Below are positions 655 through 42,670 of a DNA stretch of 64,000 nt, in pieces. The position numbers and the translations under genes are program-made. Within the stretch, counting starts at the first letter, position 1, and each line of letters opens with the position of its first letter. The notes below the pieces were generated by a model. The model was given only the letters and a program-made list of their open reading frames with translations, was not told the origin of the DNA and searched no databases. Source of the stretch: Chalara sp. BL73 (lineage: Eukaryota; Ascomycota; Leotiomycetes; Helotiales); the NCBI GenBank assembly GCA_918026815.1, contig CAKJVC010000196.1, forward strand, positions 1 to 64,000, in the 5' to 3' direction.

Positions 655-3600
655 GTTTGTCGATTTGTAACAGTTTATAAACGTATATTTACAAAACTTT
701 TACAAACTGCGTTTTTCGGTTCGAAACTATAACTAAAAACAAGTTGTAATTTTTGTAAAAAATCTGTAAAAAAAGTTTTGCTAAGTTTTTTGTATTTATA
801 AAGTTTACAGCTTTAAAAATAGCTTTTTTTAGTCGGTCGGTAATTACTAAAATATTTTTACAGTTTATATTTTTAAAAAACTAAATAACGAAATTTATAA
901 AAATTTTACGCTATTGCTGTTTCGAAATAAACAAAAACTTTAAAAATTTTATTTACAGTTTTTTAAGTTTTGTTTGCTTTACAAAAATCGCAATTACAAA
1001 CGAATTTTTATACGTGCTTCGATATTTTCGGCTAAAAAACTGTTTAATTATTAACGCTATAGTACTATTTTTTTAAGTAACTGTATAGTATAAAATCGTA
1101 AATTAATTGTATTAATTAAATTCGTAGTTTTTTATTAAAAACTTAATAACAGTTTTAAAACAGCAAAACTTTTAAAAAAATTTCGAACATTTTATAAAAA
1201 AACTTTAACTTTAAAAGCTGTAAACAGTTTACGAGTTTATTTTTGTACTGTTTTTAGTATTTACACGTATTGCAAATTTGTAAATACTACTGCTTTTATA
1301 ACTTTTGTAAATTGCTAAATAGTTTATATAGCAAACTTGTTTGTTGCTTTGCAACGTTGCTTTTTATTAAGTTTTGTTATTGTTAACTTCGCAAATATTT
1401 TGCTAACTTTTTTTTGCATTATTAATAACTTTAACAACTGTACTATTCGATAGTGTAATTTGTTGTTTGTAGTATCGACCGGCAAATTTTGTTTTCGGCG
1501 AAATAAAGCGTTTATATACTCGTTGTTTTTTTTGTTAGTAAACAATTACGAAGTTGTAACGCGAAAAAACCAATAATTAGCGTATTTGTCGTTTTGTTAA
1601 TTTACGGATTGTTATAAAGTATTTTAAGTTTTTGTAGTTCGTATAAATTTAAAAACGCTTTATACTTCGTAGTTAAAAGTTTTATTTTTAAAAACAATTA
1701 ATAATTGTTAATATTTTTGTTGTAAATTTTGTAATTGTATTTAACAAAAAAAACTTTTTTAAAAAAATAAATATAAAACTGTAGCAAACTTTTTTGTCGA
1801 CTTAAAACAAAGTTTTTTAGTGTTTTATATTAACGTATTCGTTTTATAATCGTTTTTTTATAGTCGAACTAAACTAAAACAAAAATAAAAACAAACAATT
1901 TTTTAGCTTTTTAAAAACAGCGTTTACTATATTGTTTTATTAAAAACTGTATTTTGTTTTATAAAAGCCGTTAACAAAACTGTAATTTTTTTTTTTTTTA
2001 ATAAAACATTTGTAAAAGTTCGTAAACCCGAAAAAGCTTTTTACAGCTTTTACGGACTTAAACGCTTTTATTTAATAATAGTTTTTATTTTTTCGAAATT
2101 TATTCGTAATTTTATTTTCGTTTTAATAATAAATTTTAAATATTTCGTTAATTGTACTTTAAATTTATACTTATCGATATTTAGTTAAAAGTTTGCTTTT
2201 TAAAATTTTTGCAATACTTTACAAACTTTCCGACAATAGTTTTTAATATTTTTTAACGTGTAAATAAACACGTCGTTAATATACGCCGAACAAAATTCGT
2301 TTAAATATTTTCGCAACGTTTAATTAATATATTTTTAAAACGTGTTTAAAACGTTCGTTAAATTAAAAAGCGTTACTATTTATTCGTACAATTTATAACG
2401 TGTTTAAAAAGCAGTTTTTATTCGTTTTTTCGACGATTCTGATTTTGTAAAACGCAGTTTTTACGTTTAGTTTAATAAACTAACAAGTTTAAAACAAATT
2501 TTGCAGTATTTTGTAAATTAACAAAAAAAATAACAGTTTTTATAAGTAATTTTATTTAAGCTTTAGTAGTCGATACAAAACCGTAATTTACTTTTAAGCT
2601 TTTTAACAAACAAAACAAAAACTGCTATAAAAAAATTGCTTATTTAAATAAATTTTTTATTGAAAAGTTTTATAAAAGTTTTCCGGAAAACTAGTAACTT
2701 TTTTTTCGATATACTATACAAAAAACTTTAAAAAAAAGTTTAAAATTAACTGTTTACTTTTTTAAGTCAATATTATAATCGATTTTTTTTTTCGGAAACA
2801 AAAGTAGTTTTTAGCTTTTTTCAAGTCAAATAAAAAAGTAAACTGTGTATATTAAGTTGAAAACTTTTTTTTTAAATTTGTCGAACATTGTTTTGCTAAA
2901 ACTTTTTTAATATTTTTTAAGCTAACTGTAAATACGTACAATTTAAACTGTCAGCGAACTTTTTTAACTAAAGCGTAAAAAGTTACAGCGAATACTTTTG
3001 CGTATCGAGTTTTCAAGTATATTATAGTAGTTTTTTACGGATCGTTATATTTGTAAAGTTTACTTGTAATAATTTTTGTTTTGCATTTTACTAAGCATTT
3101 TGTTTTTTAAACTATAACAGTTTAAAAATTATATTGTAGCTTGAAAGTTTAAATACTATATACAAATAAGTTTTATTTTTTGTATAGCTATTTATATTTA
3201 TTTTTACAACAGCTATTTTTGTAATAGTTTCGTTGCTAAAACTGTTAAAGCTTTTTAAAAAACAAAAAAAATGCTAATACGCAACAAGTTGTATTTACAA
3301 ACAAACTGTAAATCGATTATTTCGTATAAAAAGCACTTAGTATTTATTAAAGTATTAGTAACCGACTTTTAATTAATAAATATAAATACAACAAAAATAA
3401 ACTATTTATAAAAAAAAAAAAATTTTATTTATTTTTTTACAATTTTTTTAAACTTTTAACAACGATTTGTGTTAAAAACTTTTTTTTTTAAGTTACTTTT
3501 TTGTTATTACTGTTTGTAACGTTTAAAAAAAATTTTAAAGTTTTTTTTGCGCGCTTTTTTTTTTTTTAGTTTTACAGCTGTAATTTTCGCTTTTTGCTTT

Positions 3601-4950
3601 ATTGTTAATTTATTACAGTTTGTCGATTTCGGTTTATAAGCTAGTAGCAAGTAGTAAATTGTAACAAAATGCTTTTTTTTGCTGCAGTACAAATATAAGT
3701 TTTTTATTTTTTTTTTTTGTTTTTTTTTATTAAAAACTTATTCAGCTTTTTTTTGCGTTTACGTTTTTACAAAAACTACCGATATCGATTGCTAGTTTAT
3801 TGCGTTTTGCGAGCTGTTTATAGAAACTAGTAACTTTTAACAAGTTTCGTTTTTTTTTTTTTTTTTTTTTTTTTAATTTTTTGTAAAACTGTAAACTTAT
3901 TGTTAACAGTTTGTAATTGTTTACAATACTTTTTGTATATAAGCTTTTTTTTTATATTTACTATACAAGTAAGCATTTGCATTAAAAAAGCAAAATTTAA
4001 ATAGTTTTTTTTAGTTTTATTATTTTATTTTTATATTTGTGTTTTTAGTATTAGCTAGTCGAATTTTGCTAAAAATTTACAAAATAGTTTAAAGTTTTGT
4101 CGAATATTGTTTAGTTTATTAAAAACTTTTTTTTGCTAGCAAAAGTTTTTAAACGTTATTGCTATTTGTTTTAGTAAATTACAAACTGTAAACTAGTTTG
4201 TTTTTAAGTAAATGTTTATTTACAAATAAACGCGACTAGCTGTAGTATTTACTAAACGGCTAAATACGTATTAAACTTGCTTTGTTTTGTTTTTAATACA
4301 AGCTTTATTTATTTACAATTTAGTTTGTAGCAATTTTTCGAACTGAAAGTACAGCGCTACATTTTCTTTTTTGCATAGTTCCGAATTCGTAAATCGAAGT
4401 TTTAGCTTTTTTAGCTTGTTAGCCGGTAAAAAAAAAACAAGTTTAAGCGTAAAGCTTAAAATTAAGTTTAACAGTGTTTTTTTTAACGTGTTTATTCGAT
4501 TAGCAGATTTAGTTAACGCAGCGATTGTTTGTTTTTGCAGTTAGTTAATTATATTCTGCTAATTGTTTAGTATGTTTTACAATTATACAAAAAAATTCGA
4601 ATTATTTATTTTTATTGTTTTACTTTACGAGCGTAGTTCGTATATGTTAAGCTTTACTGTAGCTTGACAGTTTGTAACACTTTTTTTAAATAGTCAATAA
4701 ACTACTACTACTGTTTTAAGCTTCGTTGTATTCGTAATTCGTAAGCAGCTAATTTGCTACTTTTTTAAATATGTAATACTTTTTTGCAAGCAGTTAATTT
4801 GCTGCTGCTGTTTAAAAAAACGCTATAGCGCGTAGTTCGCTACATAAAATTAAAATGTTAATTTTAATGTAACAAGCTAATAGTAACTTATTCAATTGAC
4901 TATTACTGCTATATTACATAAAAAATCAATATAAAAAAAAAAAAGAAAAA
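655..4950. other. AT-rich mutated repeat block, no genes
   Basis: A long run of very low GC with homopolymers and no credible coding. The few open frames (near 1324-1545 and 3507-3692) are K/N/F/L-rich products of composition. C occurs almost only as ACN, GCN or TCG; TCA, TCT, TCC, CCA, CCT and CCC and their complements are nearly absent, while CpA/TpG is common. I read it as repeat DNA mutated to saturation by a RIP-like process. The original repeat families cannot be recognised by eye. Confidence 0.8.
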
Positions 4951-12893: not shown

Positions 12894-13022
12894 AACAACA
12901 GCTTTTTTACGCGCACCACGCGTCGAGCTGGCTATTGCTGGGAGGAATAGGCTAGTGAGCTAGTTCTTCAAGTATTGGAGACGTGTTTTGAACAAAATAG
13001 GGGGGGTTGAAAATTGTTGTTT

Positions 13023-15592
13023 TTGGCGGAATGCCGGTATCAATTGTACTAAATTGCTCTAGTTGGTTGTAGTTGTATTGCTAATAATAACCGGCAAATT
13101 GTTTATAAACTTTATAAATTTCGACGTATTTTTTGTAATAGTTTTTAAAGCCATATTGTTGTTTCGAGTAATAAAAATGTTTATTTTTATTGCAACTTTT
13201 AATGTTATTAAGCTAATTTCGGCGTTTGTGTTAAGCGTAACTTTAATATTTACAAGCTTTAAGCAGCTTGCTAATATAATAACTACTTTTAGTGTAAAAA
13301 AATAAACTTTCAAATATTTCGAATAAAACTTTACTAAGCTAAAACTAACGTTAACTGTACTTTTGCTGCAGTTTACTAACTTTTTTAAATTTATTATACT
13401 TTTTTTAAATGTTTGTTTAGCAGTTGTATTAAAATTAATACTAAAGCAAATTACTAGCTTTTTTAAGCTTATTATGCTTTTTTTAATAAATATATACTTT
13501 ATTTTTTTATTTAAAGTTTTTTTTAAGTTTTTAAGCTGTTTTTTAAAAAGAAAAGCCGGATTTGCTAGCGACAGTAGTTTTTTTAAAGTAAATTTTTTAA
13601 AAATCGATTTTTAAGTTATAAGTTTTGCTAACGAACTTTTATAACTGTAGCTAAGTTTAGCTAGCGTACTTGCTACTGTAAATTTTAATTTTTAAGCTTT
13701 TGTAACTTTTTGCTTTAAACTAGATTTTTCCGGCTTTTTAAGTTTGTTTTTAAAAAAACTTTTTTAAAAACATACTATTTTTAGCTGTAGTATTTTAATT
13801 ATACTGTGCTTCGTTTACTTTTAAAGCTTTTTTTGTAGCGTAAAAAACTTAAAGTTATATAATGCTTAACGTTTTGCTTTTTTAGTAAATAGTTTAATTT
13901 TTACAAGTTTTATTTCGGCTTTTTTTACAATAAAGTTTTGCACTTAAATACTCGTTTTATTACTTAGCTTCGTTTTTGTTAGTATATCGCTAGTTTTATA
14001 AACGTAAGTTTTAATATTATTAATTATACTTTTTTTTTTAGTTTAAACTTTTTTTTTTTTAAACCGAACTTTTTTTTTTAAAACTCGTTTTTTATTTTTA
14101 AAAATGTAACTAAATTTAGTATTAATAGTTTGTACTATAACTTAGTTTCGGCGCAAAAAGTTGTTGTTAAACTGTATAAATATTAAAGTTTTTCCGAGTT
14201 TTTAGAATTTTAAGTAAATATAGTAATTTTCGTTAAACTTATAAATAACGCTTAAGTTAATAAATTTCGTATAGTTGTAATACTAGTTTATATATTTATA
14301 AAACTTTTAAAGTTTTATATTATTTAATTGCTAGTTTTTGCACTATTTGCAAGTATCGTTATTTCGAAACTTTTTTTTTATTAAAATTTTTTATAACTTA
14401 CTTTATATTTTTTAGTATAATTCTTTTTTAAATAGTTAAAGTTAGCTATTCGAGCTTTTTGCTAAACTCGTTTTGTAACAATTTGTAAAATTCGCAAACG
14501 TTTTAAGTTTTTTGTAATGTTGTTTATTTTTTAATTCGTAACTAAACAATTTTTTAAAAAAAAAAATTTAATAAAAAACAAAACAGCTTTTTTGCGCTTT
14601 TTTAGTTTTAACGTCGAAAATGCCGAAAATGCCGAACAAGTTTTTTTAAACACAAAAAAAGTATTTATTTTTAAACTATTAAACTTTGTAAGCAGCTTTT
14701 TTATTTTTTGTTTTTATACTAAATTTTTTTTTTTTTTAATATTGCACATTCGTTTTTAACGTATTTATAAATTTTTTTGTAAAGTTTAATATTTTTAGTA
14801 TTTAGTTTTTTAAGTTTTGCTGTATATTTAAAAGCTTTTGCTTGCAGTTTATACAGCAGTTTATATAAAAATTTAAACGTTAGCATTTTATTTGTAATAA
14901 CTTTTTTTTTAAGCATTTTAATTTCGCTTAATTAAACTCTTTATAATAAAAGTATATTTGCTTTTGTATTACGTAATTTTAATTACCGATAGTTTTAAAC
15001 TTTTTAACGTATTTGTCGAAGTATACAATAATATATAAAAGTTGTTTCGAGTTTTTATACCGGTACTTTTTTAACAGTTTTTGTTAAAAAAAAATTTACG
15101 TTACAGTCGAATTACTGTATTCGTTTAATTGTTTAATTTTTTTTTTTAGTTAAATCGAAACGTATTTTGCTGCTTTTTTTTTTTTTTTTTTTTTGTTATT
15201 TTAAATTTTATAATTTTTAAAGCTTTTGTTAAAAAATTTAAAGTATATAGTAAATTTTTTGTTGTTAAAAAACGAACTGCTATATTTTTTAAGTATCGGC
15301 ATAAATTAAAAGTAAGCACAGTTATATATTCGGCTCGAGTTTATAAAAGCAACCGATTGCTTTTTAAGTTTTTTATACTTGTATGTTTTGTTGAAAAATA
15401 AATTTAAAATAAAATTTTTAAGTTTTTTTTTTTTGGACTTTTTAGCCGTAAATACAAACTTTAGTGCCGATACAAAAAACATTGTATATAGTATAAGTAC
15501 TATAGCAATAGTAATAAGCAAAAAATTGTTTTGTTAAAAAACTTTCGAGTATAAAAAAAAAAGTTAATATAACTAGTCGTTGTTATTAAAAC
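13023..15592. other. AT-rich mutated repeat block between two LINE copies
   Basis: Same texture as 655-4950: homopolymers, frequent TCG, GCT, ACA and ACT, almost no other TCN or CCN. Overlapping frames on both strands at 13059-13313, and those at 13363-13614, 14719-14916 and 15306-15521, are low-complexity I/F/L/K/N strings and not accepted. The LINE at 15607 inserted into this already AT-rich DNA, as its target duplication shows. Confidence 0.8.
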
Positions 15593-15747: not shown

Positions 15748-17274
15748 ATGTCGAGCGCGTCTGACCCCTTTTTGGAGGCGCCTGCCTCTAGCCCACCACC
15801 CAGTGACGATATCGACCTCGTCGACGTGCCTATCGAAAGCTCTAGCTTAGAGCTACCGAATCAGCCTAGTAGCAACAGTGCTATTAGGCCTATCGAGCTA
15901 GAACCTAGCTCCGACCCAATTGCTAGCAATCCGTTCCCGACGGAAAACTTTTCTGCCGCATTTGCCTCAGGCATCAACTTTCACCGCCCGAATTACAACC
16001 AAAACGGGAAGCGTACGGCATTTAGTTTTTCCGCAACCGACAACAACAACAACGCGAAACAAGCACGTTTTGCAACAACAACAACAACAACTACACAATC
16101 GGCACGCGAGCTAGTTTTACAAGCTCGTGATTTATTGATCCAAGCTAGCTTAGCTACGCAATCACGCGACGAGCAATCGAAGCTACTAGATTTGCTAGAG
16201 ATCTTCAGGGAATACACGGAACAAGGAAAATTGCGTACGGCGTCTACAATCATCACGTCGCAAATCGCCAACCTAGAATCAGCTACGCGTCAAATTGAGA
16301 CGAAAGCTAAAGCACTAGCTAAAGTGCCTATCGCTACAGCACCTACAGCTACAGCACCCAAATCGACACTGTCATACGCGTCTATAGCTACGGCTAGCAA
16401 TATGACTACAAACAAGCCTCAGGAATGGACCCTAGTTCAGCCTAGATCAAAAGCAAAAGTAGCTAATCTAGCTACTTCAAAAATTGAACTAAGCAAAACT
16501 AAGGTGCAAAGGCTAGTTTTGATCAGATCCCCAGATGCAAACAACTCATTTTCGCCACTAGCATTACGGAATGCTTTCAACAACGCTTTCGCACAAAAAG
16601 GCGTAAAAGAGCCGGTAGTTAATACTATCACAAAATCACTTGGCCAAAATCTAGTAGTTACTACGACTAGCCAATTTTCGGCACAATATCTACTCGACAA
16701 ACAAGCTATTTGGCAACACCTAGTATCGTACAAAATAGCTCAAATCGACGAGCCTTGGCACAAAGTCGTGCTACACAATATCCCGACAGCCGACTTCAAT
16801 ACGCCTAGCGGCATGGAGCTAGTAATCGACGAAATCAAGACTTTCAACAAAGGTCTACAACCTATCGGAAAGCCGTATTGGCTGTCGTCAGCTGACAAGC
16901 GGGCCAATCAACGTGCCGGATCTATCGTCGTTGCATTTGCTACAGCCGACGAAGCTAGTCGAGCTATTCGACACCGGCTATTTGTAGCCGGCATCAGCGT
17001 ACGCGTAGAGAAATTCTATGCTACAGCGCCGACTACGCAATGCGGCAAATGTCAGGCATTCGGACATATCGACACACATTGCAAAAAATCAGCAAAATGC
17101 AAGCTTTGTAGCGAAGGTCACGTGACTAAGCAACATGCTTGCAATACGTGCAATACCGTCGGAGCCAAATGCATTCACTTAGTGCCGACGTGCGCCAATT
17201 GCAAAGGCAATCATACAGCTGATGATCGAACATGCGAGGTTTTTACCTCAATTAAATCGACTAAGCTAAATTAG
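15748..17274 (+). CDS. LINE ORF1: Gag-like nucleic-acid-binding protein, 508 aa
   Basis: The first ATG in the open frame is 15748; codons upstream are open for about 65 bases but lack an ATG. The N-terminal half is Ser/Pro/Asn-rich and low in complexity, with poly-Asn and poly-Thr runs. The C-terminus has cysteine/histidine knuckles: CGKCQAFGHIDTHC (CX2CX4HX4C), then CKLCSEGH and CANCKGNH. Such ORF1 proteins bind element RNA and form the ribonucleoprotein used in retrotransposition. The stop TAG is one base before the ATG of ORF2 (TAGCATG), so ORF2 may be translated by termination-reinitiation. The frame is intact. Confidence 0.9.
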   Translation: MSSASDPFLEAPASSPPPSDDIDLVDVPIESSSLELPNQPSSNSAIRPIELEPSSDPIASNPFPTENFSAAFASGINFHRPNYNQNGKRTAFSFSATDNNNNAKQARFATTTTTTTQSARELVLQARDLLIQASLATQSRDEQSKLLDLLEIFREYTEQGKLRTASTIITSQIANLESATRQIETKAKALAKVPIATAPTATAPKSTLSYASIATASNMTTNKPQEWTLVQPRSKAKVANLATSKIELSKTKVQRLVLIRSPDANNSFSPLALRNAFNNAFAQKGVKEPVVNTITKSLGQNLVVTTTSQFSAQYLLDKQAIWQHLVSYKIAQIDEPWHKVVLHNIPTADFNTPSGMELVIDEIKTFNKGLQPIGKPYWLSSADKRANQRAGSIVVAFATADEASRAIRHRLFVAGISVRVEKFYATAPTTQCGKCQAFGHIDTHCKKSAKCKLCSEGHVTKQHACNTCNTVGAKCIHLVPTCANCKGNHTADDRTCEVFTSIKSTKLN

Positions 17275-17275
17275 C

Positions 17276-20200
17276 ATGATTAGTACTAATACCAAAGTAT
17301 TACAAGTGAACCTCAACAAAAGCGCTGCAGCTACCGAATCAGCACTTCAGCTAGCTATCGAGCTAAAAATCGACATAATCGTCGTTCAAGAACCATGGCT
17401 AGTGCAACCAGCCGACAATGAGCTAGACTATTCGACAACACGCTCAATAGCTCATTCAGCATTTCTACAGATTTTGCCGGCTGACCTAGCATTCCGACCC
17501 CGTACGCTAGTCTACGTAGCGAAAAGCTATCGGCCAATAGTCACTATAGCAAGCACGTCACCACGTGACTCCGACATGCTTGTAGTCGATATTGTCGAAA
17601 AAACGTCAAAATTGCAACTTCTCAATATTTACCAGGAATCAGACCAAGCTAGATTAGGGCCTAAAACGCTAAATCGGTGCTTGTATGCTAGAACGCTACA
17701 GCCAAGTACGATTTTGCTAGGCGATTTTAATACGCATCATCCTTGGTGGGATCCATTAGCAAAGCCTAGTCCGAATGCCGACGAGCTAGTCAATTGGATC
17801 GAAAATCAAGAACTAGCGTTATTAAATACGCCTGGCGAAGGCACTTTTTTTCGACATCACATGACTAGAGAATCGGTACTAGATTTGACTTTAGTTTCAA
17901 GCAATTTAGCTGAACTAGTCGACGATTGGCAAGTTTTGCCTGATTTAGGCTCGGACCATTACGGAATCCTTTTTACAATACGCGGAACTAGCACTAGCTC
18001 GGATCTCGACAACAATATGCAAACTAGATTCAATACGCAACTAGCTGACTGGCCTCGATTTTCTGAAGCTTTTGCTCAAGAAATCGAAAATAGCTCGATT
18101 TTGAGCAGTTCGGCCTTAGTTCAGCTTAGTACAATTGATCAAAGTAGCTCAGCCAGCTTGGAACTGCTTCAGGATCCTAATTTGGAAATCGGACAAATCT
18201 TACAACACGCTAGCGCTAGCTATTCGGATATGCTAGTTACTGATTTTTTAGATCAAGCTGCGGAATCGCTTACTACAGCTATTACCACAGCAGCAAAAAT
18301 AGCGATTCCAATACAGAAAACTAGCGCTAAAGCCAAGCCTTGGTGGAATGACGAACTACGGGAATTACGGCAAACTATGCTACAGTGCAAACGACAGCTA
18401 GCACGTGATTCTACGGCACGTGATTCTACGGCACGTGATTCTGGTCAACAGCCAATACTTGATTCTAGTCGGAAACAGGAATATCTAGTAGCTCGGAATA
18501 GCTATTTTTTGGCCATCAAACGTGCAAAACGCAAGCATTGGAATCAATTTCTGGAAAAAGAAGATCCGCGATCAATTTACAAAGCTATAGCTTATACAAA
18601 GGATCGACAAACGGAAAGATTGCCGACTATATCAGGCCAAACGACGTTCCAAAGCAAAGCTAGTATACTACGTAGCAAGCTGTTCCCTCCGCCACCTATA
18701 GCAGCTAATTTAGCTTGGTACAATTATCGACCTAGTACTACGTGGGCATGGCCAAAATTAGCTATTTCGGAGCTAGAAAATGCATGCTCGGCAAAAATCA
18801 AAGGCAAAACGCCAGGTCCGGATTTGATCAATCAAGATATTGTTCGCCAAGCATATCGTACGCATTCGGAGCTATTTTATAGACTATTCGCTAGTTTATT
18901 GAATATCGGCTATCACCCAAAGTGCTGGAAGCAAGCTACAGGTGTAATACTCAAAAAGCATCAAAAGCCTGACTACACGGATCCGACAGCATACAGAGTA
19001 ATATCGCTACTTAATTGCTTAAGCAAAATCAGCGAACGCATTCTAGCTCAGCGACTTAGCTACTTAGCGGAAACAACTAGCTTATTGCACAATACGCAAA
19101 TCGGAGGTCGCTTGAAAAAATCAGCTATCGACGCGGCAATGCTATTGACAAATGAGATACAGCAAAATCGACTAGCAAAACGTACAACAACAACGTTGCT
19201 ACTAGACATCAAAGAAGCATTCGATCACGTGGCCAAAAATCAGCTATTAGCTATTTTGCAAAAGCTCGGCATGCCGACTAGCTTGATTTCCTGGGTGTCG
19301 TCATTTCTAGCTAATCGACAATTACGACTCTCGTTCGACAACCAACTAGAGCAATTTAGTACAATTGATACCGGCATCCCGCAAGGCAGTCCTATTTCGC
19401 CAATACTATTCTTGATCTACATACGAGATTTAGCGGCAAAGCTAGCTTCGTCGATTAAAATAGTGTCGTACATGGACGATATGTCATTGACTACGTCATC
19501 GACTAGCTTGCGGAAAAATGTACGCATACTAAAACGCGAAGTAGCTAAACTAGCTGAACTAGCGAGCTTGAATGCAATTCAATTCGATTTGGCCAAAACC
19601 GAACTAATCCATTTTACGACAGCTAAACTAGCTAGTTCAATTAGCTTACGACTACCTGACAACGAAGTCGTACAGCCAAAAAAGCTAGTACGCTGGCTAG
19701 GCGTTTGGTTCGATTCAGGACTTACATTCAAGCAACACGTCGCAATACGTACTAGTCAAGCTAGATCTAGTTTTTATCGACTAGCTAGACTAGCTAATAC
19801 GGAACAAGGCCTTAGTCCTTTTGCTATTCGACAGCTGTACCTCGCTTGCGTGACTAGCGTGGCCGACTACGGAGCAATAATATGGTGGAAAGGTCAAGCA
19901 CAATTTAGCCGACAATTACAATCATTACAGAACTTAGCACTACGCAAAATACTAGGTGTTTTCCGAACTAGCCCTATTTGCCCTATGGAAGTCGAATCGG
20001 CATTGTATCCTGCTAGCGTACGACTTAACGCTAGCGTACGACAATATGCTATTCGAGCTTTGAAGCTACCTCAAAATCACCCAATCAGACAAGCTATACA
20101 AACAGCTACAGCCGGCACACAGCTAGAACGCATCGCTAGTTCAGCTAGTTCAGCTAGTTCAGCTAGTTTAGCTAGATTAGAGCACATACAACACTACAAG

Positions 20201-21289
20201 TACGCTCCATGGAATCGCACTACGCCGTACAACGTCGAAATCAGCTCGTTGTCAAAAGAGGACGCTACTACAATGCACCAAACTAGCTTGAATCACTTAA
20301 GCTACCTTAGTACAATTATTTACTCCGACGCGTCGATGATTCCGAGCACCGAATCGACAGGTGTAGGAATTGGCTTTATTGCGCTACAATACGACAATCA
20401 AGGACGGCCTAGTACGATACATCGTAATATCGACAACATTGGCCAATCACAGCTAGTCTACAATGGAGAGCTAGAAGGAATCACGCAAGCTATCGAATAC
20501 GCTAGTACAATAGCACAGCCTGGCCAAAATTACGATATTTATGCCGACAATCAAGCCGCACTTCACAGGCTAAAATCAGCTAACGACAATCCCGGCCAAT
20601 CACAGCAAATACGCGCTAGCGAAGCTACGCTATACGCAATAGAAAAAGGAGCTAGTATTGCACTAAAATGAGTTCCAGGGCATACGGATATCTACGGAAA
20701 CGACCAAGCCGACAAATTAGCTAAACTAGCTACAACTATTGAGCCTAGCACTGCAACGACGAGTTTTGCGGTACTCGGCTGCGAAGCTAAAAAAGCTAAT
20801 ATTGCGGAATGGAAAAATGTGCTAGCAAAGTACAACAGCAAGCCTAGTACAAATCCATTTACGTACAAAAAGCTATTTCCGTGGAAAATCAAGTCGAAAA
20901 TACAACTACCGCGCGGAACGACTAGAGAGCTAGCTAGCTCGCTATTTCAACTAAAGCTCGGCCATGGCTATATTCGATCATATTTGCACAAGCTAGGTCA
21001 TGTGACGTCTGACAAGTGCGTGTGCGGAACGAAGGAAACAGCTCAGCATTTGCTACTTAGCTGTAATGATCCTAAGCTAGTTTTAGCTAGATCAAAGCTC
21101 AAAAACGACCTTGGAGGAAACAGGCTTACAATGGCCTTACTACTACATACAACTATCGGCATTGAAAAGACGCTAGCGTTCCTTAAAGCGACTAGCGTCT
21201 GTACTAGACGGAACCACCTGAATAGGCTAGAGCGGGAACAGGAGCTAGAGGAGCTAGAGGCGCTAGGGGAGCTTGAAAGAGAGGAATAG
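17276..21289 (+). pseudogene. LINE ORF2: endonuclease / reverse transcriptase / RNase H, one internal stop
   Basis: One frame of 1,338 codons broken only by TGA at 20669-20671. N-terminal EEP-type endonuclease: VQEPW near residue 39, GDFNTHHPWW near 149, SDHYGI near 227. The reverse transcriptase has GIPQGSP and the catalytic YMDD near residue 737. RNase H has YSDAS, ADNQAAL and GHTDIYGNDQADKLA. A CXC-X7-HX4C motif lies near the C-terminus. The stop sits where RNase H proteins have the Trp of a WVPGH-like motif, so I read it as TGG changed to TGA. It removes the last RNase H motif and the tail. ORF2 also holds a 15-bp triplication (18404-18448) and an SSA repeat (20146-20170). Confidence 0.92.
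18404..18448. repeat. 15-bp tandem triplication inside LINE ORF2
   Basis: Three copies of GCACGTGATTCTACG (the last diverging at its end) add in-frame ARDST repeats. Copy 2 on the minus strand lacks the expansion at the matching site (reads LARNASRKQEY). The reading frame is preserved. Confidence 0.85.
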
Positions 21290-22994: not shown

Positions 22995-22999
22995 GAAGG
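22995..22999. repeat. Left target-site duplication of Gypsy element
   Basis: GAAGG, identical to 29516-29520. Confidence 0.9.
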
Positions 23000-23349
23000 T
23001 GTTACGCGCATCGCTAACAGGCTTATGCCTTAGGGGCCTGAGGCTCGGTAGACTTGGTTTACACAGAGAACCCCTGAGGTAGGATCACGTGATGGATCAT
23101 GGATCATGCTATGATCCACGATCCATGGATCATGGCGCTTGCAATGATCCAACACACGAGGGAATCTATATAAGTAAATAGCTTTTCTTTAGATAGGAGC
23201 TTCGTGCTCAACTCAATATAGTATCTTAACACCATACTGTTATCGGGATCTTACTCTTTATATGTGATATACTTACTTCTTCCCAGACCAACAACCCTCG
23301 GACCAAGATTTTCTATCTATATCAGTTGTAGGCTGATAGGACCGTAACA
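23000..23349 (+). repeat. 5' LTR of Gypsy element
   Basis: 350 bp, TG...CA. Contains inverted copies of GGATCATGG-like blocks near 23093-23137 and the promoter described separately. Differs from the 3' LTR by 13 transitions. Confidence 0.95.
23167..23211 (+). promoter_or_regulatory. LTR promoter: TATA box and probable transcript start
   Basis: TATATAA at 23167-23173 is followed 37 bp later by GTGCTCAA at 23204-23211. That octamer is the exact complement of the sequence two bases inside the element (23352-23359). In self-primed Tf1-type elements the mRNA 5' end pairs with the primer-binding site. So the position of the octamer suggests transcription starts at about 23204. The start site is inferred. 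Confidence 0.6.
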
Positions 23350-23351
23350 CT

Positions 23352-23359
23352 TTGAGCAC
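23352..23359 (+). other. Primer-binding site, probably self-primed
   Basis: TTGAGCAC, beginning two bases after the 5' LTR, is complementary to GTGCTCAA in the LTR (23204-23211). I did not recognise a match to a tRNA 3' end. This is the arrangement of Tf1/sushi-type retrotransposons, in which the transcript's own 5' end primes first-strand synthesis. Confidence 0.55.
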
Positions 23360-23390
23360 CTGTCTTGAAGTACCTGTATCGCGTATAACA

Positions 23391-26300
23391 ATGTCGACAA
23401 CTAGTTCAACCCCACGTACCTCTAAAGGCTCAGCGCCATCTGAAGCTTCACCACCAATTCCACAGCCTGTTTATATGCCACAACAAGTCAAACCACCTAA
23501 GGTCCAGGAACCTAAGACCTTCGACGGCAATCGACAACACTTTCGCCTATACGTCTCACAATGCGAAATCTACATTCGCATGAACCCGCTATCCTTCGGA
23601 AGCCAGAAGCAGATAGTCTTGTAGGCAGTATCCTTCTTGACAGGAACCGCTTACGATTGGATTTCTACTCATTTGAAGGACTACTTCGCTTATTCACATA
23701 ACAAGAAAGAGATCGAGACTAATCTCATTTTTGACAGTTATAAAGAATACGTCAGTCAACTCACCCGTATGTTCGGGAACACGAATAAAGAAATAAAAGC
23801 GGAACGAGACATTCAAGTGTGCAAGCAACTTACTAGTGTAACGGAATACACAGGGCGTTTTAAGCTGCTAGCAAGAAAAGTAGACTGGGATAACAAAGCT
23901 CTTACTGCGCTCTACTACAAAAGTCTCAAGGAAAATGTCAAGAATAATATTGTTCGGAGAGGACGACCAACCAACCTCACCGCCATAAAAAACAAAGCAA
24001 TTGAGATTAACACCAGACTGTATAAGAAACGCATAGAAAAAAAAGGACAGTATTCTTTAGAGTTCAGCAAACGGCAGCACTCTCAGAAACCCCGTTATCA
24101 CTCACTCATAGAACTGGATGCGTTCCAGAAAAAGCCTAAGCAAAAAACAAACTTATCCAAGAAAAAAATGCAGCAACGACGCGACAAGAAGCTATGCTTC
24201 GAGTATAGACTGCCAGGGCACATAGCTAGCTCTTACCGCTAGAAGCAACCTTGGAAAAGCCAGAAACAACTCAACATCACGAGCAAAAAAAAATACAACA
24301 AAGCACCTGGCAAAGTTCTGGCCGTGCTTAAAGCCAAGAAACCAGAAATGCCAGAAAAAGAACTAGAACAACAACAGATCTATACTCAACATAACGCTAC
24401 GTGCATTAAGTGTGGAATGAAATGCAGTGCAGCCTGAAAAGACAAATGCTCCAGTTGTCATTTCGACGAGGATAACGAATAGGAAGAAACAAGCAAAACT
24501 ATAAAAGAATTCTTATCCCAAGTAGATAAAGCAGCTATTGAATCAGAATCCGATGGAAATTGGAATGTAAGTTTAAAGATAAATCGGCTTTTGAAAATCT
24601 CTGAATCAGAAAAACGGATTCTGCATAAGTCACTATCCAGGGTTGATCAGGATGACTTTAAAGCACTTTCCAGAGAATATATAGTCAATAACACCCCAGC
24701 AGAGGAAATTACACTCCAGCGCAGACTGGAAATCATCAATAAGGAAATCCTCAAAAAAAGAACAAAGCTAGAAGAAATAAGAGCAGAAAAAAGAGCTAAA
24801 AAACGCAGCAAATAAGAAGCAATGCTTGCGTCAGGTTTAATCGACGAGTCTGAAAAGAACAACGCAGCGCATTACCGACACCCACAACATAGAACCTTTC
24901 ACTGGACTGCATGCTACACGAACCACTGCACATATCATTATAACGCTAAGCAAGCAGGGTAGTACTCAAAGCGAAAGCGGATAATATACCTCGAGAATAA
25001 CGAAGAAAAAGAACCAAAAAGAGAACTTTGCGCTTTCGGGGGGGAAAAACAATTATCTGTCAGAGTCAAGCTAGGAACATACAACATGACAGCTATAATA
25101 AACTCTGGAGCCACGAGGAACTTCGTATTACCGGACGTGATAAAGCATTTCGGAATATCTACACAAGTCAAGACTAACTTATACACTTTCACGGTAGCTA
25201 ACGGCACGGATGCATCGTACCGAGATGGACTTGTAAATATCGAAACATCAAAGCTCAGAATGGACACAAGTGACTACATGGAATAGTTACAACTGGACGT
25301 CACCCGGATAGAGCGGCATAAGATTATTTTAGGAATGCTATAGATTATAGAGCATAACCCAACGATCAATTGGCAAACAAGACAGCTCGTCTTTAACAGA
25401 TGCCAATGTGCGGTCAAGCCCAAGCTATTGACTATTAGGCTAACAGGGGGCAAAGACAAAAAAGCACAACTAGAAAAACTCGACCAGAGCCCAAAAGAAG
25501 TTTGCGCTACTTCCAAAAAGGAGCCAGATCACCTAGACGAGGGATCACATACTAAAAAAGTGCCCAAAAAGTATGAAGAGTTCGAACGGCTATTCTCGGA
25601 GGAACAGGGACCCGCGGCTTTGCCGGAACACAAGCTATGGGATCATGAAATACCATTAATCGAGGAAGCAGTGCTTCCAAAAGAACCAATTTACTCATTA
25701 TCCACAGATAACCTGAGGACGCTCAGAAAGTTCATCGACTCCGGCCTGAAAAAAGGAATAATCAGGAAGTCAACATTACTAGCAAAAAGCTCGGTGTTAT
25801 TTGTGCTTAAACTAAACAAAACTAAAAGGTTGTGCGTCGACTATCGGAAGTTAAACGACATAACAGTTAAAGACTGCTATGCACTACTAAAAGCAGACGA
25901 GATAAAAAATCGCCTGCAAAGAGCCAAAATATTCATACAGCTAGACTTACGAGATGCGTACTATAGTGTGCGAATCAAAAAAGGCGAAAAATGGAAAACA
26001 GCTTTCGGAACCCGGTACAAACATTACGAGTTTACAGCCATGCTTATGGGACTCACAAATGCTCCAGCCATTTTCCAAAGACTAATTAACAATATTTTTA
26101 TGCTATTCTTGAACGTTACTTGCATATGCTATCTGGATGACATTTTGATTTATTCCAGTCGAGAAGAAAATCACAAAAACGATGTCAAGGCAGTATTATG
26201 TGCGCTGCACAATGCGAACATAAGACTCAAACTATCGAAGTGTCGATTTGAAGTCAAAAAGGTTATATTCTTGAGATATGTGATCTCCACAAAAAGAATC

Positions 26301-28598
26301 AAAATGGACCCAGCGAAAATCAAACCTATCTTAGAATGGAATGCTTCAACATGCGTTAAAAACGTATAATCATTTGTGGGATTCGCCAATTTCTATCGAA
26401 AATTTATTAAGAGATATTCGGAATTAGCTACTTCATTAACTCGACTTACTCGGAAAAACGTGGTTTTCGAGTGGACAACAGAAGCACAAGAAGCGTTCAA
26501 CAAGTTGAAGCAGGCTTTCACTATTGCTTCTGTACTTCTCGCTTTCGATGCAGAAAAAGAAATCAAAGTAGAAACCGATACATCAGATTATGCTTTAAAA
26601 GCTGTGTTCAGCTAACTCAACGCGAAAGGGAAATAGCAACTAACAGCCTACTATTCACGAAAGTTCACATCAGCAGAATTCAACTATAAAATATACGACA
26701 AAGAACTACTCGCTATTGTTGATGTATTTCGCGAATAAAAAAAGTACTTAGAAAGATTCAAATACCAGGTACAAGTGCTAACAAACCACAAAAATCTCAT
26801 TGTTTTCACCACCACGAAAAAGTTAAACCGACGCCAGGTCAGGTAAGCGAAAAAACTCGCTTTATACAACTTCAGAATTTCATATGTCAAAAAAACAGAA
26901 AACGCTAAAGCAAATGCGCTTAGCAGAAAACCGGAGTACTTCTCCAACAAAACACATGTTTTGCACGCGGTGCTACAACAAGAAAAAGACTTATTAGTAT
27001 TCAACAGAAAAGAACTTTTTATAGCCACAAGGATAAAACATCGAGTAGAAAACTCGGAGTTTATCCAAGCATACAGGAAAGATCTTATAGCCACCAGAGC
27101 TCTCAACAAACAAAAGCAAAGATTTACCACAAACAGCTCAGAAATCTTTCGCTACCACGAGAAAATCTATGTCCTATTTATACTTAAAACGACTTTTGTA
27201 ATGGAACAACATAGACTACCCGCTTATGGACATCAGGGGATCGCTAAAACCATAGACAAAATCTCCAGGAAATACTACTTTCCAGGAATAAGAAAACTGG
27301 TTACCAGGATAGTTACCGAATGCGACACGTGTATCCGGAACAAAGCTTTACGCTATGTTTCCTATAGACTAATACAATCGCCGACTACCTCAGACAAACT
27401 ATAAAAGTCTATCGTATAGGACTTCGTAGTAAAACTACTACTTTCCAGACAGCCGGTCTCGGGAAAATAGTACGATTCAATATTTGTTATTGTAGAAAAA
27501 ACTACCAAATACTGCTACTTAGAGCTATATTTGGAAAGCAGCACAGCAGAAGATTTAGCTTATACATTTCTTAGAGTCGTAGTTGCAAACTATAGAACTC
27601 TTACGGAAATCATATCAGACAGAAACAAGCTCTTCACATCCAAGTTCTGAACAACGCTCACTGCGCTTATAGAAGTAAAAAGGAAGCTATTAACGAGCTT
27701 TCATTTACAAACTAATAGACAAACAGAAAGACTTAACTAGACAATAGAAGCATACTTCAGATGCTATGTGAACTACAAGCAAGACAACTAAGTCGAGCTT
27801 TTGCCACTCGCACAGTTCGCATACAACAGTGCAATCAACGAAACAACAAAAGTATCGCCGTTTTATGCTAACTACGGCTATGAGCCAGAAGCATACTATG
27901 AACCAGGCAAGGATAAAGCGCATTTACAGCTTGCAATAGTCAAAGTCGAACAATTACAAGCACTGCACTTACAGCTAGCCGAAAACATAAGATTTCTCAA
28001 CTAAAGATCTGCGGAGTACTACAACCGTAAGCATAGTGAAACACCACACTTTAAAAAGAGGAATAAAGTCTATTTTGTCAGAAAAAACATTAAAACTAAA
28101 AGACTAAACAATAAACTGGATCACAGAAAGCTGGGACTATTCAAAATCAAACAAGTTGCAGAACTAAATGCATTCGAACTCTACTTTCCTAGAACTATGA
28201 ACATACACTCAGTATTTCTCGCTTTACTCTTTGAACCAGCACCAGAAGGAGCACCGCTAGCTTCACACACGGAAATTGAACCAATCAACCCAGAAGCTGA
28301 ATACGAGGTCGAGAAAATTCTAGACTGCAAGTATGTCAGAAGGAAACCAAAGTATTTAATTAAGTGGATCAATTACCCAGATTCGGAAAACACATAGGAA
28401 CCAAAAAGAAACTTCAACTGCCCTGAAATGCTTGAGGAGTTCTACTGTCAATATTCAAAAGCTCCAGATAAGAAGCCCAGAGGACGTTCCCAGGGGAAGG
28501 AAAGTCAAAATCTGCAAAGGAAGTGCTCGGCAGGACTTCAGGTGTGCAGAATGCGTTGTGCACATTCTCCAGGAGATCCTCGGGCCTGGCCTGTGTAG
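23391..28598 (+). pseudogene. Gag-Pol polyprotein of chromodomain Gypsy element
   Basis: One frame of about 1,736 codons with about twenty in-frame stops and no frameshift. Gag starts at ATG 23391. A degenerate zinc knuckle near 24198-24240 reads CFEYRLPGHIASSYR, with Tyr where Cys is expected twice. Protease: INSGA near 25098, so the catalytic Asp is Asn. Reverse transcriptase: YLDDILIYS near 26128. RNase H near 26565-26940. The integrase zinc region spans 27204-27345 (H, H, CDTC), followed by a DDE core with SDRNKLFTS near 27618. The chromodomain (EYEVEKILD to NYPDSENT) is at 28299-28394 and is followed by a stop where homologues have Trp. Most stops fit TGG or CAG/CAA changed by G-to-A or C-to-T. 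Confidence 0.9.
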
Positions 28599-29076
28599 CC
28601 TCCTGAGCCAACCGCTCTTTCTCCTCCAGAGCATCGAGCTCGTCCAAGGACGCGAGTCCACGTCGCAACATCTCTTTTTCACGAGCGCGAAAAAACTTCT
28701 TCTGCGTACGGATCCGTTTGATCCGTGCAGAAATCTTTGCGGCAGCCTCGGCGAGTGCTTCGGCCTTTTCTTCGGCTTTGGCCTCGTCCTCTTCCAACTT
28801 CTTCTTTGCTTTGTCTAAAGACCTCTAGTCCTTAGAAGCAGGACTACCAGCATCACAACCAGAAAAACCACGACGCACACACTTAGCACAACGAGTTGAC
28901 TTTTCTGCTTTTATGCATTTTATGGAATGTCGATCCCGGGCATGTTTTTTTTCGCAAGCAGTACACGGAATCATTTCTTCGCCAGTCAGAATTATCCGTC
29001 TTTTCAGATCTTTCTTTTTAATGTCTTTTCGTGACACTTCAAAATCAAAGCAATCGGCTGTACGCTTAGTTGTCAT
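28414..29076 (-). pseudogene. Antisense accessory ORF of the Gypsy element, 220 codons with one stop
   Basis: Runs opposite to Gag-Pol between the chromodomain and the 3' LTR, from ATG 29076 to TGA 28414. A TAG at 28825-28827 is the only break and fits a TGG codon hit by G-to-A. Residues 37-78 hold six or more cysteines in CTACEKKH...KC...RCAKCVRRGFSGC, a likely zinc-binding cluster. An Ala/Glu/Lys-rich stretch after the stop (residues about 85-155) looks like a coiled coil. The C-terminus overlaps the 3' end of Pol by 185 bp on the opposite strand. From memory, some fungal Gypsy elements (Boty of Botrytis) also carry an antisense gene; I cannot confirm homology. Function unknown. Confidence 0.7.
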
Positions 29077-29152
29077 AATGAAAGAGAAAGGTGGCCATGC
29101 GGCCTCCTACGATATTTTCTTAGCATACTTAAGCATGTGGACACGCTAGTCT

Positions 29153-29165
29153 AGGAAGAGGATAG
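29153..29165 (+). other. Polypurine tract of Gypsy element
   Basis: AGGAAGAGGATAG directly abuts the 3' LTR, where plus-strand synthesis is primed in LTR retrotransposons. One T interrupts the purine run. Confidence 0.7.
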
Positions 29166-29515
29166 TGTTACGCGCATCGCTAACAGGCTTATGCTTTAGG
29201 GGCCTGAGGCTCGGTAGACTTGGTTTACACAGAGAACCCCTGAGGTAGGATCACGTGATAGATCATGGATCATGCTATGATCTACGATCCATGGATCATG
29301 GCGCTTGCAATGATTCAACACACGAGGGAATCTATATAAGTAGATAGCTTTTCCTTAGATAGGAGCTTCGTGCTCAACTTAATATAGTATTTTAACACTA
29401 TACTGTTATCGGGATTTTACTCCTTATATGTGATATACCTACTTCTTCCCAGACCAACAACCCTCGGACCAAGATCTTCTATCTATATCAGTTGTAGGCT
29501 GATAGGACCGTAACA
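29166..29515 (+). repeat. 3' LTR of Gypsy element
   Basis: 350 bp, same length as the 5' LTR with no indels; 13 transitions separate them. Confidence 0.95.
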
Positions 29516-29520
29516 GAAGG
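29516..29520. repeat. Right target-site duplication of Gypsy element
   Basis: GAAGG, pairs with 22995-22999. Confidence 0.9.
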
Positions 29521-29818: not shown

Positions 29819-30021
29819 TGTAAGGTGCTGGAGTAGGGTGGCACAAGTCAACTGCAATTAATACAAAGACTAATCTCTACTTTCTCTACTCCGTCCCGAG
29901 TCCCCTACTTATACCCTCCGAACCCCTGGCGACTCCCTACATGCCTATACATGCCAAGCCTCAGTGCCTTTACCGAGCCCCTCTCAGTGCCTCTTAGCAC
30001 GTGACATCCTGGCGCCTGACA
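29819..30021. repeat. Solo LTR B, 203 bp
   Basis: Same family and length as 22783-22985, seven differences. Flanks are ATAAG (29814-29818) and ATAGG (30022-30026), a target duplication with one G/A change. Solo LTR left by recombination. Confidence 0.85.
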
Positions 30022-30810
30022 ATAGGCTGAATTTTGGCTTTTGAATCGCTATTAAACTGCCTCAGGAGAGTAATATTGATTCCAGATTTGTAGAGGGCAC
30101 CGCGTACAGGTGTTCAGCCGTCGTCCTCCCGGCTCGTGTTGTTGAATAGACTAGCCCACTAGTTTATTATGATATGCAATTGAATTTAGAACGAAGGCGG
30201 GGGTTCAAAAATCGTTGACCAGTTTTTAATAGAATGAGAGGTTAATTTATTTTGTAAAAAGTAAGTATGTAAAAAAGGCTCACAATTAATTAAAACATTG
30301 AACTAACATACAAAAAGGTAAAAAAGTGGTGACCGTATTGTAGATCGGCCTTCTATTTCTTATCCGTAGTGTATTGTAAAATATTGATACCCGAGCCGAA
30401 CTAACTTTGCCGATGGTGCAGGGAATGCATAAATTTATGCATGGACAAGGCGCGTCGCCGGCTGCCCAATCAAGGGGGGTGGCGGTCGAGGGGCATTTTT
30501 GACCACTGCGAGAGCTTCCTACAGTATAGACTTATTTAGCTCTCAGCTCATCAGTCCAGAAAAAATACATCGCCAGCTATATTCAGTCACACTGTTGTTC
30601 ATTCACAAGAACAGACGACCGCTCAACTTTTCTCCGCTGCCATATAGCTCATCCATAATTTCGTCTCAGAGCTCAGAGTTGGTTAAACTCCTCAAGAAAC
30701 TCGCTGCTAGAAGTATATCTAGAGGGAACATAGCGTCCTTATTGTCCACAGCTTCAGACTGGAGCAAAAAGAGCGGCGTTCAGGCCGGCTTTGACCGCCG
30801 AGCCGCAGGA
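30022..30810. other. Repeat edge and upstream region of DDHD gene
   Basis: Around 30140-30222 (minus sense) a weak resemblance to the LINE 5' end is visible (GAATAG.CTAG..., then GGGGGTTCAAAAATCGTTG against GGGGGGTTGAAAATTGTTG). From about 30410 the composition becomes that of host DNA, with a GC-rich patch at 30450-30495 and a pyrimidine-rich stretch before the proposed start. This is the transition from transposon-rich to gene-rich DNA. Confidence 0.4.
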
Positions 30811-33800: not shown

Positions 33801-34176
33801 AACACTGATTGATGATGAGATCGAGACTCTTTATGCAGGGTTCCAAAAGGACCGGAAAAAAATACAGACCGAATCGGGCGGCGACTATGACTGGGCTGAA
33901 GCTGAGGAGCGGGGCAAGAAGATTCGTAGAGAGGAAATGAAGGTTCGAGCATTGAATTCGAATGGCCGTGTAGATTTCAGTATACAGGAGTAAGTCGCAT
34001 GTTATGCAGTCTTTATATAATACGTTTTAATATTTCGCAGGAGTGTTCTCGACTTTAATCCCATGAATACCATTGCGTCTCATCTCTCATATTGGGCAGA
34101 TGAAGATGTCAGCCACTTTGTGATGTCCCAGCTCTTATCAAGGCATCGTAACTTCGCAAAGAATGTGCAGAAATAG
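30811..34176 (+). CDS. DDHD-domain phospholipase A1-like protein, about 1,026 aa
   Basis: Proposed exons 30811-30819, 30866-31117, 31174-32414, 32466-32775, 32857-33989 and 34041-34176, all GT-AG and in phase. Early conserved blocks are GAIESITPWG and ARWFYAVD. LILVTHGIGQR lies near residue 495, the lipase motif GHSLGS (nucleophile Ser about 649) in exon 5. The DDHD metal-binding domain follows: DFDVEDFYCLGSPIG near 695-710, FHPTDPISYR downstream and ADEDV near the C-terminus. The family hydrolyses phospholipids, preferring phosphatidic acid, on organelle membranes. The first two exons are the least certain: the tiny first exon encodes only M-D-I; the frame is firm from about 30866. It faces the Spt6 gene 3' end to 3' end. 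Confidence 0.88.
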
Positions 34177-34752
34177 ATTACTGGCCTTAATATTCTATTG
34201 TGCTGAGATCCGCGACGGAAACATGGCGTTTGGTAGAGAACGGGTTATCAGGTACAGGAGTCATATATTTGGAGATAAAGTCGAATGCCTTAGTGAATGA
34301 ACTCTTAGAATACCCTGTAAAAATAATTTCTCACACCGTTCTTGAAAATTGGAATGGAAAATCATTCTAGAAGAGTGCAGTGGCAATGATCAGCGGACGT
34401 TAACTCATTGGTCCTTCTCTTGGGAACGCTGAAATTGAATTATTAGGATGTGCCATTTCGAGCAGGCGTTGATCACGAGGAAGGGAAGATATAGAATGCC
34501 GATATTCAAAATGATTGGTATGTTAGATGCATTATTCACGATCCAAGGGAAGAAGTCTTCTGACCAAATCGCCTAATAGAGAAATGCTCGCCTGAGTTCG
34601 CTACCTATGCTCAATATATACTTTTCAGCTTCGTAGATGCCCTCAATTACCTTATTAACTGGTACATCAAAGAAGAAACCAAAGGACCAGGATACCAAGT
34701 GGTAACTACCCTTTCCGGCTAGCATCGGCAAGTTCTTCAACGCTTCATCTGA
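34177..34752. other. Convergent intergenic region
   Basis: About 575 bp between the DDHD and Spt6 stop codons. Must hold both 3' ends. No ORF with recognisable content. Confidence 0.5.
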
Positions 34753-41986: not shown

Positions 41987-42670
41987 GCGACTTTCTTCAT
42001 CAAAGTCTTTTTACATCTCTGGAAGCGCAAGCCAGCATTGCCGGCGCCGTCTCGATTTGCTATAGTTCCTATTCTGTTGATGCATATCTCGTTCATGGCT
42101 CGGATCGTACTTATCTGAATGGCCAGAAAAGGAAGGAAGCAGACTTTAGTAACTTCCGGCGTTATACAGGCGTATGATAGATTCAACGAAGTGCCTAATA
42201 GCTTTTGTTCTTTTCCGTGCCATCGATACCTTCTGCAATATAATAACTAGATCAAGCCGTTACGATGCAATGGGTTTATTCTTGTAAGATGAAGATTGTT
42301 GACCCCCAAATAAACATCCTAGATGTGTTTCGTGGCGAGCCCTCCCTTCGTGTAGGAAGATTATCTCCCAACGCTCGTTTGTATAAATCACCAGGTCAGT
42401 GATACGCACCTTGGAAGCTCGACTAGGACTCGAGGAGCCGAGTCGCCTACAAGTTGCTGTTTTTTCGTCTCCTTCTATTTCTCGAGGACAGAATAACGAG
42501 GTAAAGCATACTTGGGCATGGCCATACAATATGAATAATAAGTATACGGTGGTTCGAACTTTCATAGATTCAACGATCTCTCCAGGTGCGGCTTTCATTC
42601 AGTCTATTGCCTTATGGTTGGCATTTAAAGGGGAGGCTGGCCTTTTTGGCATCCTTTAAATCTACATATT
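41987..42670. other. Convergent intergenic region
   Basis: About 680 bp between the MAPKK and HAD stop codons. Open frames here (for example 42260-42598 minus) show no family resemblance. Confidence 0.5.

Follow-up and report, generated by a model that had tools for sequence, protein, structure and literature searches.

Cytosine Loss in the AT-Rich Blocks

We analyzed a 64,000-nucleotide stretch of the genome of the fungus Chalara sp. BL73 (assembly GCA_918026815.1, contig CAKJVC010000196.1, positions 1 to 64,000; hereafter the window), which holds AT-rich repeat blocks, a non-long-terminal-repeat (non-LTR) retrotransposon, an LTR retrotransposon and gene-rich DNA, and compared it with the whole genome (58.7 Mb, 199 contigs). 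The subject is the way in which its repeats have lost cytosines, which resembles repeat-induced point mutation (RIP) but follows the base on the 5' side of the cytosine. Cytosines are classed throughout by their neighbors as YCH, RCH, YCG or RCG (Y, pyrimidine; R, purine; H, A, C or T), with both strands counted. Three regions of the window define the depletion pattern:

655..4950, unstranded: AT-rich repeat block without most YCH (context counts and genome matches)
13000..15200, unstranded: another AT-rich block, depleted in the same way (21 YCH among 466 C)
30000..64000, unstranded: gene-rich DNA (Spt6, ISWI, ferric reductase and others) with normal YCH, the internal control (context counts)

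A first-pass annotation of the window had reported that YCH is absent from 1021-1260 and, with one exception, from two further stretches, and recounting bears this out: none of the 45 cytosines of 1021-1260 with both neighbors inside the stretch is in a YCH context, while 11 are NCA and 12 are NCG (6 CpG); 13081-13260 holds a single YCH, the CCA that is the exception, among 42 C; and 13861-13980 holds none among 28 C. Over the whole block 655-4950 (21.9% G+C), the 940 C divide into 33 YCH, 631 RCH, 135 YCG and 141 RCG, compared with 6807 YCH and 5942 RCH among the 15730 C of the gene-rich control. The depletion is real and far from chance. In this block, the six YCH triplets reach 0.00-0.20 of their expected counts, and ACA, ACT, GCA, GCT and NCG reach 1.37-3.81; ACC (0.27) and GCC (0.62) are also low, because the second C of each is itself a YCH site unless G comes next. 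Beyond the window, 78 AT-rich intervals of 500 bp (<26% G+C) on 14 other contigs contain 567 YCH vs 5193 RCH, these intervals being drawn from 34 loci fetched mostly by homology and thus not a random sample.

Elsewhere in the genome, block 655-4950 matches 43 other places, in many cases over part of its length, at 68-98% identity. It also has a 99.6% identical copy at C82:677407-681733, which differs by 16 substitutions (10 of them transversions) and probably reflects a recent segmental duplication. The few changes between these two would be explained by how little YCH remained as target, and the pair is uninformative about the mutation rule, its 16 differences lying in DNA almost devoid of targets. 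Comparison of the block with two other matches (L015 and L018) likewise involves few remaining YCH, and YCG, RCT and RCA are altered as well. The standard RIP indices of the block (TpA/ApT 1.62, substrate index 0.56) fall in the RIP-positive range by the thresholds quoted in PMC12550465; literature is cited here from excerpts, and each statement drawn from it refers to the excerpt. Such indices would favor canonical CpA-directed RIP with later drift as the source of an apparent YCH depletion, a reading that the alignments described below leave with very little probability.

The Mutation Rule in One LTR Retrotransposon Family

The window contains an element whose alignment with its relatives gives the mutation rule:

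23000..29515, + strand: complete copy of an LTR retrotransposon, with fewer mutations than its relatives (alignments; same 5 bases at both ends)
25000..26999, + strand: internal slice aligned with 16 other copies (copy alignments)

This element has at least 19 nearly full-length relatives in the genome, from 16 of which the 2-kb internal slice was taken. Against each of the four closest (L043 to L046), the window slice shows 197-249 transitions and 0 transversions. The slice still has 271 YCH, 345 RCH, 97 YCG and 73 RCG sites, which excludes, for this family, that the ancestral repeats lacked YCH before they were mutated. At these sites, in the same order, a C in the window is a T in the relative in 115, 10, 4 and 0 cases (L043), 175, 27, 6 and 0 cases (L044), 176, 26, 9 and 1 cases (L045), and 190, 24, 5 and 0 cases (L046). 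The window copy has itself decayed by the same rule, as C in L043 is T in the window at 51/207 YCH, 9/340 RCH, 8/101 YCG and 0/77 RCG sites. In these close comparisons, the mutability of YCH exceeds that of RCH or YCG by a factor of about 7-16, and RCG is almost immune.

CpA as such is not the target: between the window and L043, YCA changed at 45 of 106 sites vs 6 of 136 for RCA (Fisher p 2.6e-13), and YCC and YCT were altered at a rate like that of YCA. The YCH motif is a rule of mutation and more than a matter of base composition. The first-pass annotation had proposed that the decay is RIP-like, with targets marked by a pyrimidine on the 5' side and shielded where a G comes next; the alignments of copy to copy, and of LTR to LTR as described below, now show this. 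Its description of the decay as sparing both CpA and CpG stands in part, in that RCA is largely spared and CpG is protected, whereas YCA fares no better than YCC and YCT.

LTR Pairs, Element Edges and Short Repeats

An element inserts with two identical LTRs, and differences between them can for this reason be polarized without reconstruction, if C-to-T is the direction of change. The relevant parts of the window element are:

23000..23350, + strand: 5' LTR; outer bases spared, inner end the mutated side in the family (LTR comparisons)
29166..29515, + strand: 3' LTR; the reverse of the 5' LTR, with the outer end almost untouched and mutation on the inner side in the family (LTR comparisons)
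22995..22999, + strand: left target-site duplication, same 5 bases as the right
29516..29520, + strand: right target-site duplication, same 5 bases as the left

LTR pairs were compared in ten complete elements of this family (that of the window and nine others), with 351 aligned positions each, giving 393 transitions and 0 transversions; 362 of the changes are at YCH, 27 at RCH, 4 at YCG and 0 at RCG. At least 200 bp inward from the outer edge, the changed fractions are 317/636 for YCH, 15/481 for RCH, 4/102 for YCG and 0/116 for RCG. Within this interior, YCA (109/224), YCC (83/188) and YCT (125/224) are hit to a similar degree, RCA is hit rarely (5/160), and TCG changed at 4/60 sites vs 55/125 for TCA. 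In the LTR pairs, then, a 5' pyrimidine and the lack of a 3' G each count more than tenfold, while the choice among A, C and T counts little.

These contexts bear on two of the alternatives. The CpA dominance of canonical RIP, as in Neurospora and Leptosphaeria, is not found here, and drift following such RIP would bring transversions, of which the ten LTR pairs have none; canonical CpA RIP is rejected for this family by the contexts in both the copy alignments and the LTR pairs, and with it the outcome, named in the first-pass annotation, that C-to-T changes lie mainly at CpA. Decay of methylated cytosines in silent heterochromatin would strike CpG, yet RCG is the most protected context of all. 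We attach next to no probability to this process, or to its companion, ultraviolet (UV) damage at dipyrimidines in the same silent DNA.

The changes are also distributed unevenly along the LTRs. Counted in 50-bp bins from the LTR start over the ten elements, the 5' LTRs have 0, 0, 3, 14, 17, 57 and 61 changes, and the 3' LTRs have 54, 78, 69, 14, 12, 6 and 4, plus another 4 in the short bin at the end. Mutation is almost absent at the element edge, where the outer 100 bp of the element ends are nearly spared (YCH 8/233), and climbs until, 250-300 bp inward, about 60% of YCH sites are changed. The same LTR sequence is thus mutated where it is interior and spared where it is outermost, and this mirror image rules out LTR sequence or promoter function as the cause of the sparing, for which distance from the repeat end can account. 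We note separately that the outer LTR part, at 23000-23150 of the window, is rich in short GATCATGGATC-like words.

Short repeats were examined through LTRs that stand alone. A genome search gave 153 candidate places for the LTR and 42 for an internal stretch of equal length, 40 of each being scored, and seven of the 40 LTR places scored had neither a partner LTR nor an internal match listed close by. These seven stand-alone LTRs measure 342-355 bp, and five have perfect 5-bp target-site duplications. Compared with the window 5' LTR, they changed at 21/502 YCH sites, whereas the interior LTR parts of the nine full elements changed at 134/243 sites (5' LTRs) and 195/337 sites (3' LTRs), together 329/580. 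In the same comparison, the stand-alone LTRs have 2-17 transversions and the nine full copies 0-7, with six of the seven exceeding all nine; because of this excess, the stand-alone LTRs are probably not younger than the full copies, yet they are unmutated. Repeats of about 350 bp therefore escape almost entirely, although the genome has many LTR matches, and a repeat-length requirement of the kind that marks RIP in the broad sense is apparent. UV light likewise favors C-to-T change after a pyrimidine, and silent repeats may be poorly repaired, but such damage would neither spare stand-alone LTRs that are probably no younger than full copies, nor follow element edges in mirror image.

Strands, Genes and the Non-LTR Element

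Changes on the top and bottom strands are both frequent (61 and 68 in the comparison with L043). In strand-run tests over 16 comparisons, YCH sites gave one result with p <0.01 (L043, 0.0075) and all sites gave two with p <0.05, with the proviso that many rounds of mutation may blur runs; both strands are thus hit, without clear strand-coordinated runs. Changes on both strands are not easily reconciled with editing of retrotransposon cDNA. On the contexts, strands and edges described so far, we reject cDNA editing together with CpG decay, UV damage and CpA RIP.

Genes are spared. Among 80 one-kb intervals (20 evenly stepped 4-kb samples on three contigs), two have a YCH:RCH ratio <0.6, one each in L080 and L089 (G+C 0.41 and 0.35), and the other 78 range from 0.62 to 1.55. 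This confinement of the decay to repeats is established by composition, not by alignment.

A second family was tried as a further test of the rule, and is not counted here as copy-to-copy support:

15748..20671, + strand: non-LTR retrotransposon with two open frames, of which the second has the endonuclease and reverse transcriptase domains (open reading frames, domains, codon positions)

The fraction C/(C+T) at the fourfold third positions of this element amounts to 30/202 in the pyrimidine-C-H context vs 31/47 after a purine, compared with 141/290 in three host genes. This suggests that the proteins were maintained by selection as most silent targets were lost to the mutator. The frames are intact, and there are many copies at 92-95% identity, several per contig on some contigs. 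When the window copy is compared with eight of these, the YCH excess is weak in seven (e.g., 10/179 vs 6/287 for RCH), the exception being L062 (YCH 31/181 vs RCH 8/288), and there are 14-26 transversions per slice of about 1.5 kb. This element may be shielded by its location, or may by now offer too few targets.

Two further observations concern other parts of the window. GCTAG-rich stretches lie at window positions 1-640, at about 21235, and at C2:183149-183696, with a 20-base word in common that occurs at 18 genomic places, of which two are in the window and three lie on C2 at a spacing of 264 bases. Window positions 31891-32853 hold an open frame with a DUF7131 domain, adjoining the Spt6 gene.

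Candidate Enzymes and Mechanism

The first-pass annotation had suggested looking for rid, Masc1 and dim-2 genes and for cytidine deaminases, and matches of both kinds are present. A PF00145 search of the genome gave four matches in three genes, on contigs C164, C79 and C82. The C164 gene, of three exons, encodes a canonical RID with EQT, PCQ and QIGNAVPP motifs, and so a methyltransferase of the RID/Masc1 type that accompanies RIP is present, as far as presence goes. The protein branches with the RID of Calycina marina (support 0.95); its best named relatives (Calycina marina, Hyphodiscus, Mollisia and Chlorociboria) are 61-64% identical over the searched region, the top relative being 67% identical, and by these relatives the fungus most likely belongs in the Helotiales. 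A second, diverged RID-type protein (C79:18167-19105) keeps EQT but is altered at the QIGNAVPP position and in other motifs, and falls in a clade of ten, itself included, with several Helotiales members (support 0.98). The C82 protein is a DNMT5, whose best solved relative is 7r76 (E 2.4e-35), which we take to be Cryptococcus Dnmt5. None of the PF00145 matches, from this one model, is DIM-2-like. EQT (or EET) is described as a mark of RID/Masc1 proteins, along with a short recognition domain (PMC6709928), and DIM2 is reported to intercalate an arginine beside the -1 base (PMC11315935), which puts the 5' neighbor within reach of a methyltransferase of this group.

Taking these results into account, the process is RIP-type by its behavior, because repeats are hit on both strands while edges, short repeats and genes are spared, and it lies outside canonical CpA RIP by its target. 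The explanation that we consider probable is that long repeats are hypermutated from C to T at YCH, on both strands, by a RIP-type defense in which RID or a partner acts on paired homologous DNA, with the motif shifted from CpA to pyrimidine-C-not-G. Under this scheme, homology between copies would be sensed, paired homologous copies would be the substrate, and about 150-200 bp of matching DNA would be needed on each side of a target, a flank requirement that would explain both the spared edges and the escape of the 350-bp repeats. Mutation would take place before meiosis. The RID encoded on C164 is the predicted enzyme, or would recruit a partner, and its target-recognition domain would sense the base 5' of the cytosine.

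Several APOBEC enzymes also choose their targets by a 5' pyrimidine, and the first-pass annotation had been struck by the resemblance. A zinc-dependent cytidine deaminase, either APOBEC-like or of OTT_1508 type, could in principle do the mutating, alone or brought in by the RIP pairing machinery, with its 5'-pyrimidine choice supplying the motif, and the genome does contain candidates for this role, as listed below. We judge this unlikely. The AID/APOBEC-type model PF18778, the only APOBEC model tried, has no match in the genome, though the controls of that search gave none either; the changes lack clear strand-coordinated runs in the 16 comparisons; and we know of no edge or length gating by deaminases acting alone. 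Beyond resemblance, APOBEC-type chemistry is disfavored by changes on both strands without clear runs, by the sensing of length and edges, and by the presence of a RID gene. A quite improbable variant would split the process into two separate steps, namely RIP-like pairing with flanks of about 150-200 bp, followed by a dedicated cytidine deaminase reading the 5' pyrimidine (for which an OTT_1508-type protein would be a candidate), in effect a fungal counterpart of APOBEC harnessed to RIP.

A number of observations weigh against the RID-based explanation and have to be set beside it. What links RID to the changes is the presence of its gene, and the same genome has 11 matches to OTT_1508-type (PF14441) deaminases and 8 to the dCMP/cytidine-deaminase type (PF00383, dCMP_cyt_deam). 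RIP in most fungi is described as preferring CpA (PMC4352252), which the YCH fungus does not. The gating by edge and length was measured on one LTR family, and some long repeats escape, in that the non-LTR element seems largely to avoid mutation at present. Among the 14 contigs with AT-rich intervals, the depletion is weakest on C85 (78 YCH : 117 RCH). The rule itself is also less sharp in some counts. The four closest copies partly share a common history, and changes private to one of the five copies were for this reason counted separately, giving YCH 53/70, RCH 65/332, YCG 19/97 and RCG 1/78, that is, a YCH excess only about fourfold over RCH and YCG; the smaller excess arises because only sites kept in four copies enter this count. 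A further 101 columns with one C and four T are unpolarized, and were read as C lost in four copies. Finally, the window slice differs from each of the twelve older copies by 284-382 transitions and 8-20 transversions, and these copies pooled give YCH 2372/3243, RCH 596/4115, YCG 279/1114 and RCG 75/859, showing that specificity is graded, with the weaker contexts lost too with age.

Comparison with Known Systems

RIP in Neurospora crassa likewise converts C:G to T:A, hits long repeats, spares genes and goes with a RID-type gene, but its order of preference is CpA>CpT>CpG>CpC (PMC5496416), whereas in the present fungus the cytosine has to follow a pyrimidine, it makes little difference whether A, C or T is on the 3' side, and G protects; the target order of Trichoderma also differs from that of Neurospora (PMC5496416). 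In the LTR element crapaud of Podospora anserina (PMC10787394), full copies are mutated and solo and fragment LTRs mostly spared, as in Chalara, but the target is CpA/TpG, and graded edge sparing is not described in the excerpt of that work. The hypermutation of transposons at TpCpG in Microbotryum (PMC5381629) shares a trinucleotide target with a 5' pyrimidine. It differs in needing a 3' G, the very base that protects here, TCG not being the target in the LTR interiors, and in belonging to a basidiomycete that lacks RID and has a Masc2-related methyltransferase alone (PMC4352252).

Editing by APOBEC3/AID resembles the present process in that the 5' neighbor chooses the target, as in the LTR interiors above, and differs from it in acting on single strands and in having no clear homologue here with the one model tried. 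To our knowledge, APOBEC3/AID show no sensing of repeat length or edges.

The first-pass annotation, which had made no search, knew of no fungal system described in this way, and this holds as far as the open-licence literature goes, represented mostly by titles and the beginnings of abstracts: no YCH or 5'-pyrimidine RIP in an ascomycete was recognized in it, and other literature could hold one. Dinucleotide scoring has given CpA, CpT and CpG signatures in ten genomes (PMC4352252) and lowered CpA indices in the repeats of two Arachnopeziza species and of Rhynchosporium (PMC12550465), and a kingdom-wide k-mer survey states that RIP-like defenses share a CpA preference (PMC12543289).

This raises a point of breadth, the odds of which are additional to those of the mechanisms above. 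The YCH rule might be common to many Helotiales or RIP fungi and have been missed because tools score only the 3' neighbor, a suggestion that we find doubtful and advance tentatively. In transposons of Botrytis and Sclerotinia, scoring by dinucleotide gives a mixture of CpA and CpT signatures (PMC4352252), and CpT-to-TpT is dominant in the RIP-capable control fungi of an Ascomycota survey (PMC7882544), both of which a YCH rule would produce; in addition, RIPCAL was not designed for trinucleotide bias (PMC2621366). On the other hand, a YCH rule should also yield a CpC signature, which the excerpts of PMC4352252 and PMC7882544 do not report, and DIM2-dependent changes in Zymoseptoria fall at CpA (PMC8016269).

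Conclusions

In the literature cited here, RIP is described by the 3' neighbor of the mutated cytosine, mostly as CpA, whereas in this Chalara fungus it is the 5' base that decides. The LTR data provide a natural measure of the distance from a repeat edge at which mutation sets in, about 150-200 bp, and this onset would account for a minimum repeat length of about 350-400 bp. Dinucleotide indices still call YCH decay RIP, and similar rules may consequently lie unnoticed in other genomes. A rule set by the 5' base would make the target choice of RIP testable through the RID recognition domains of different species.

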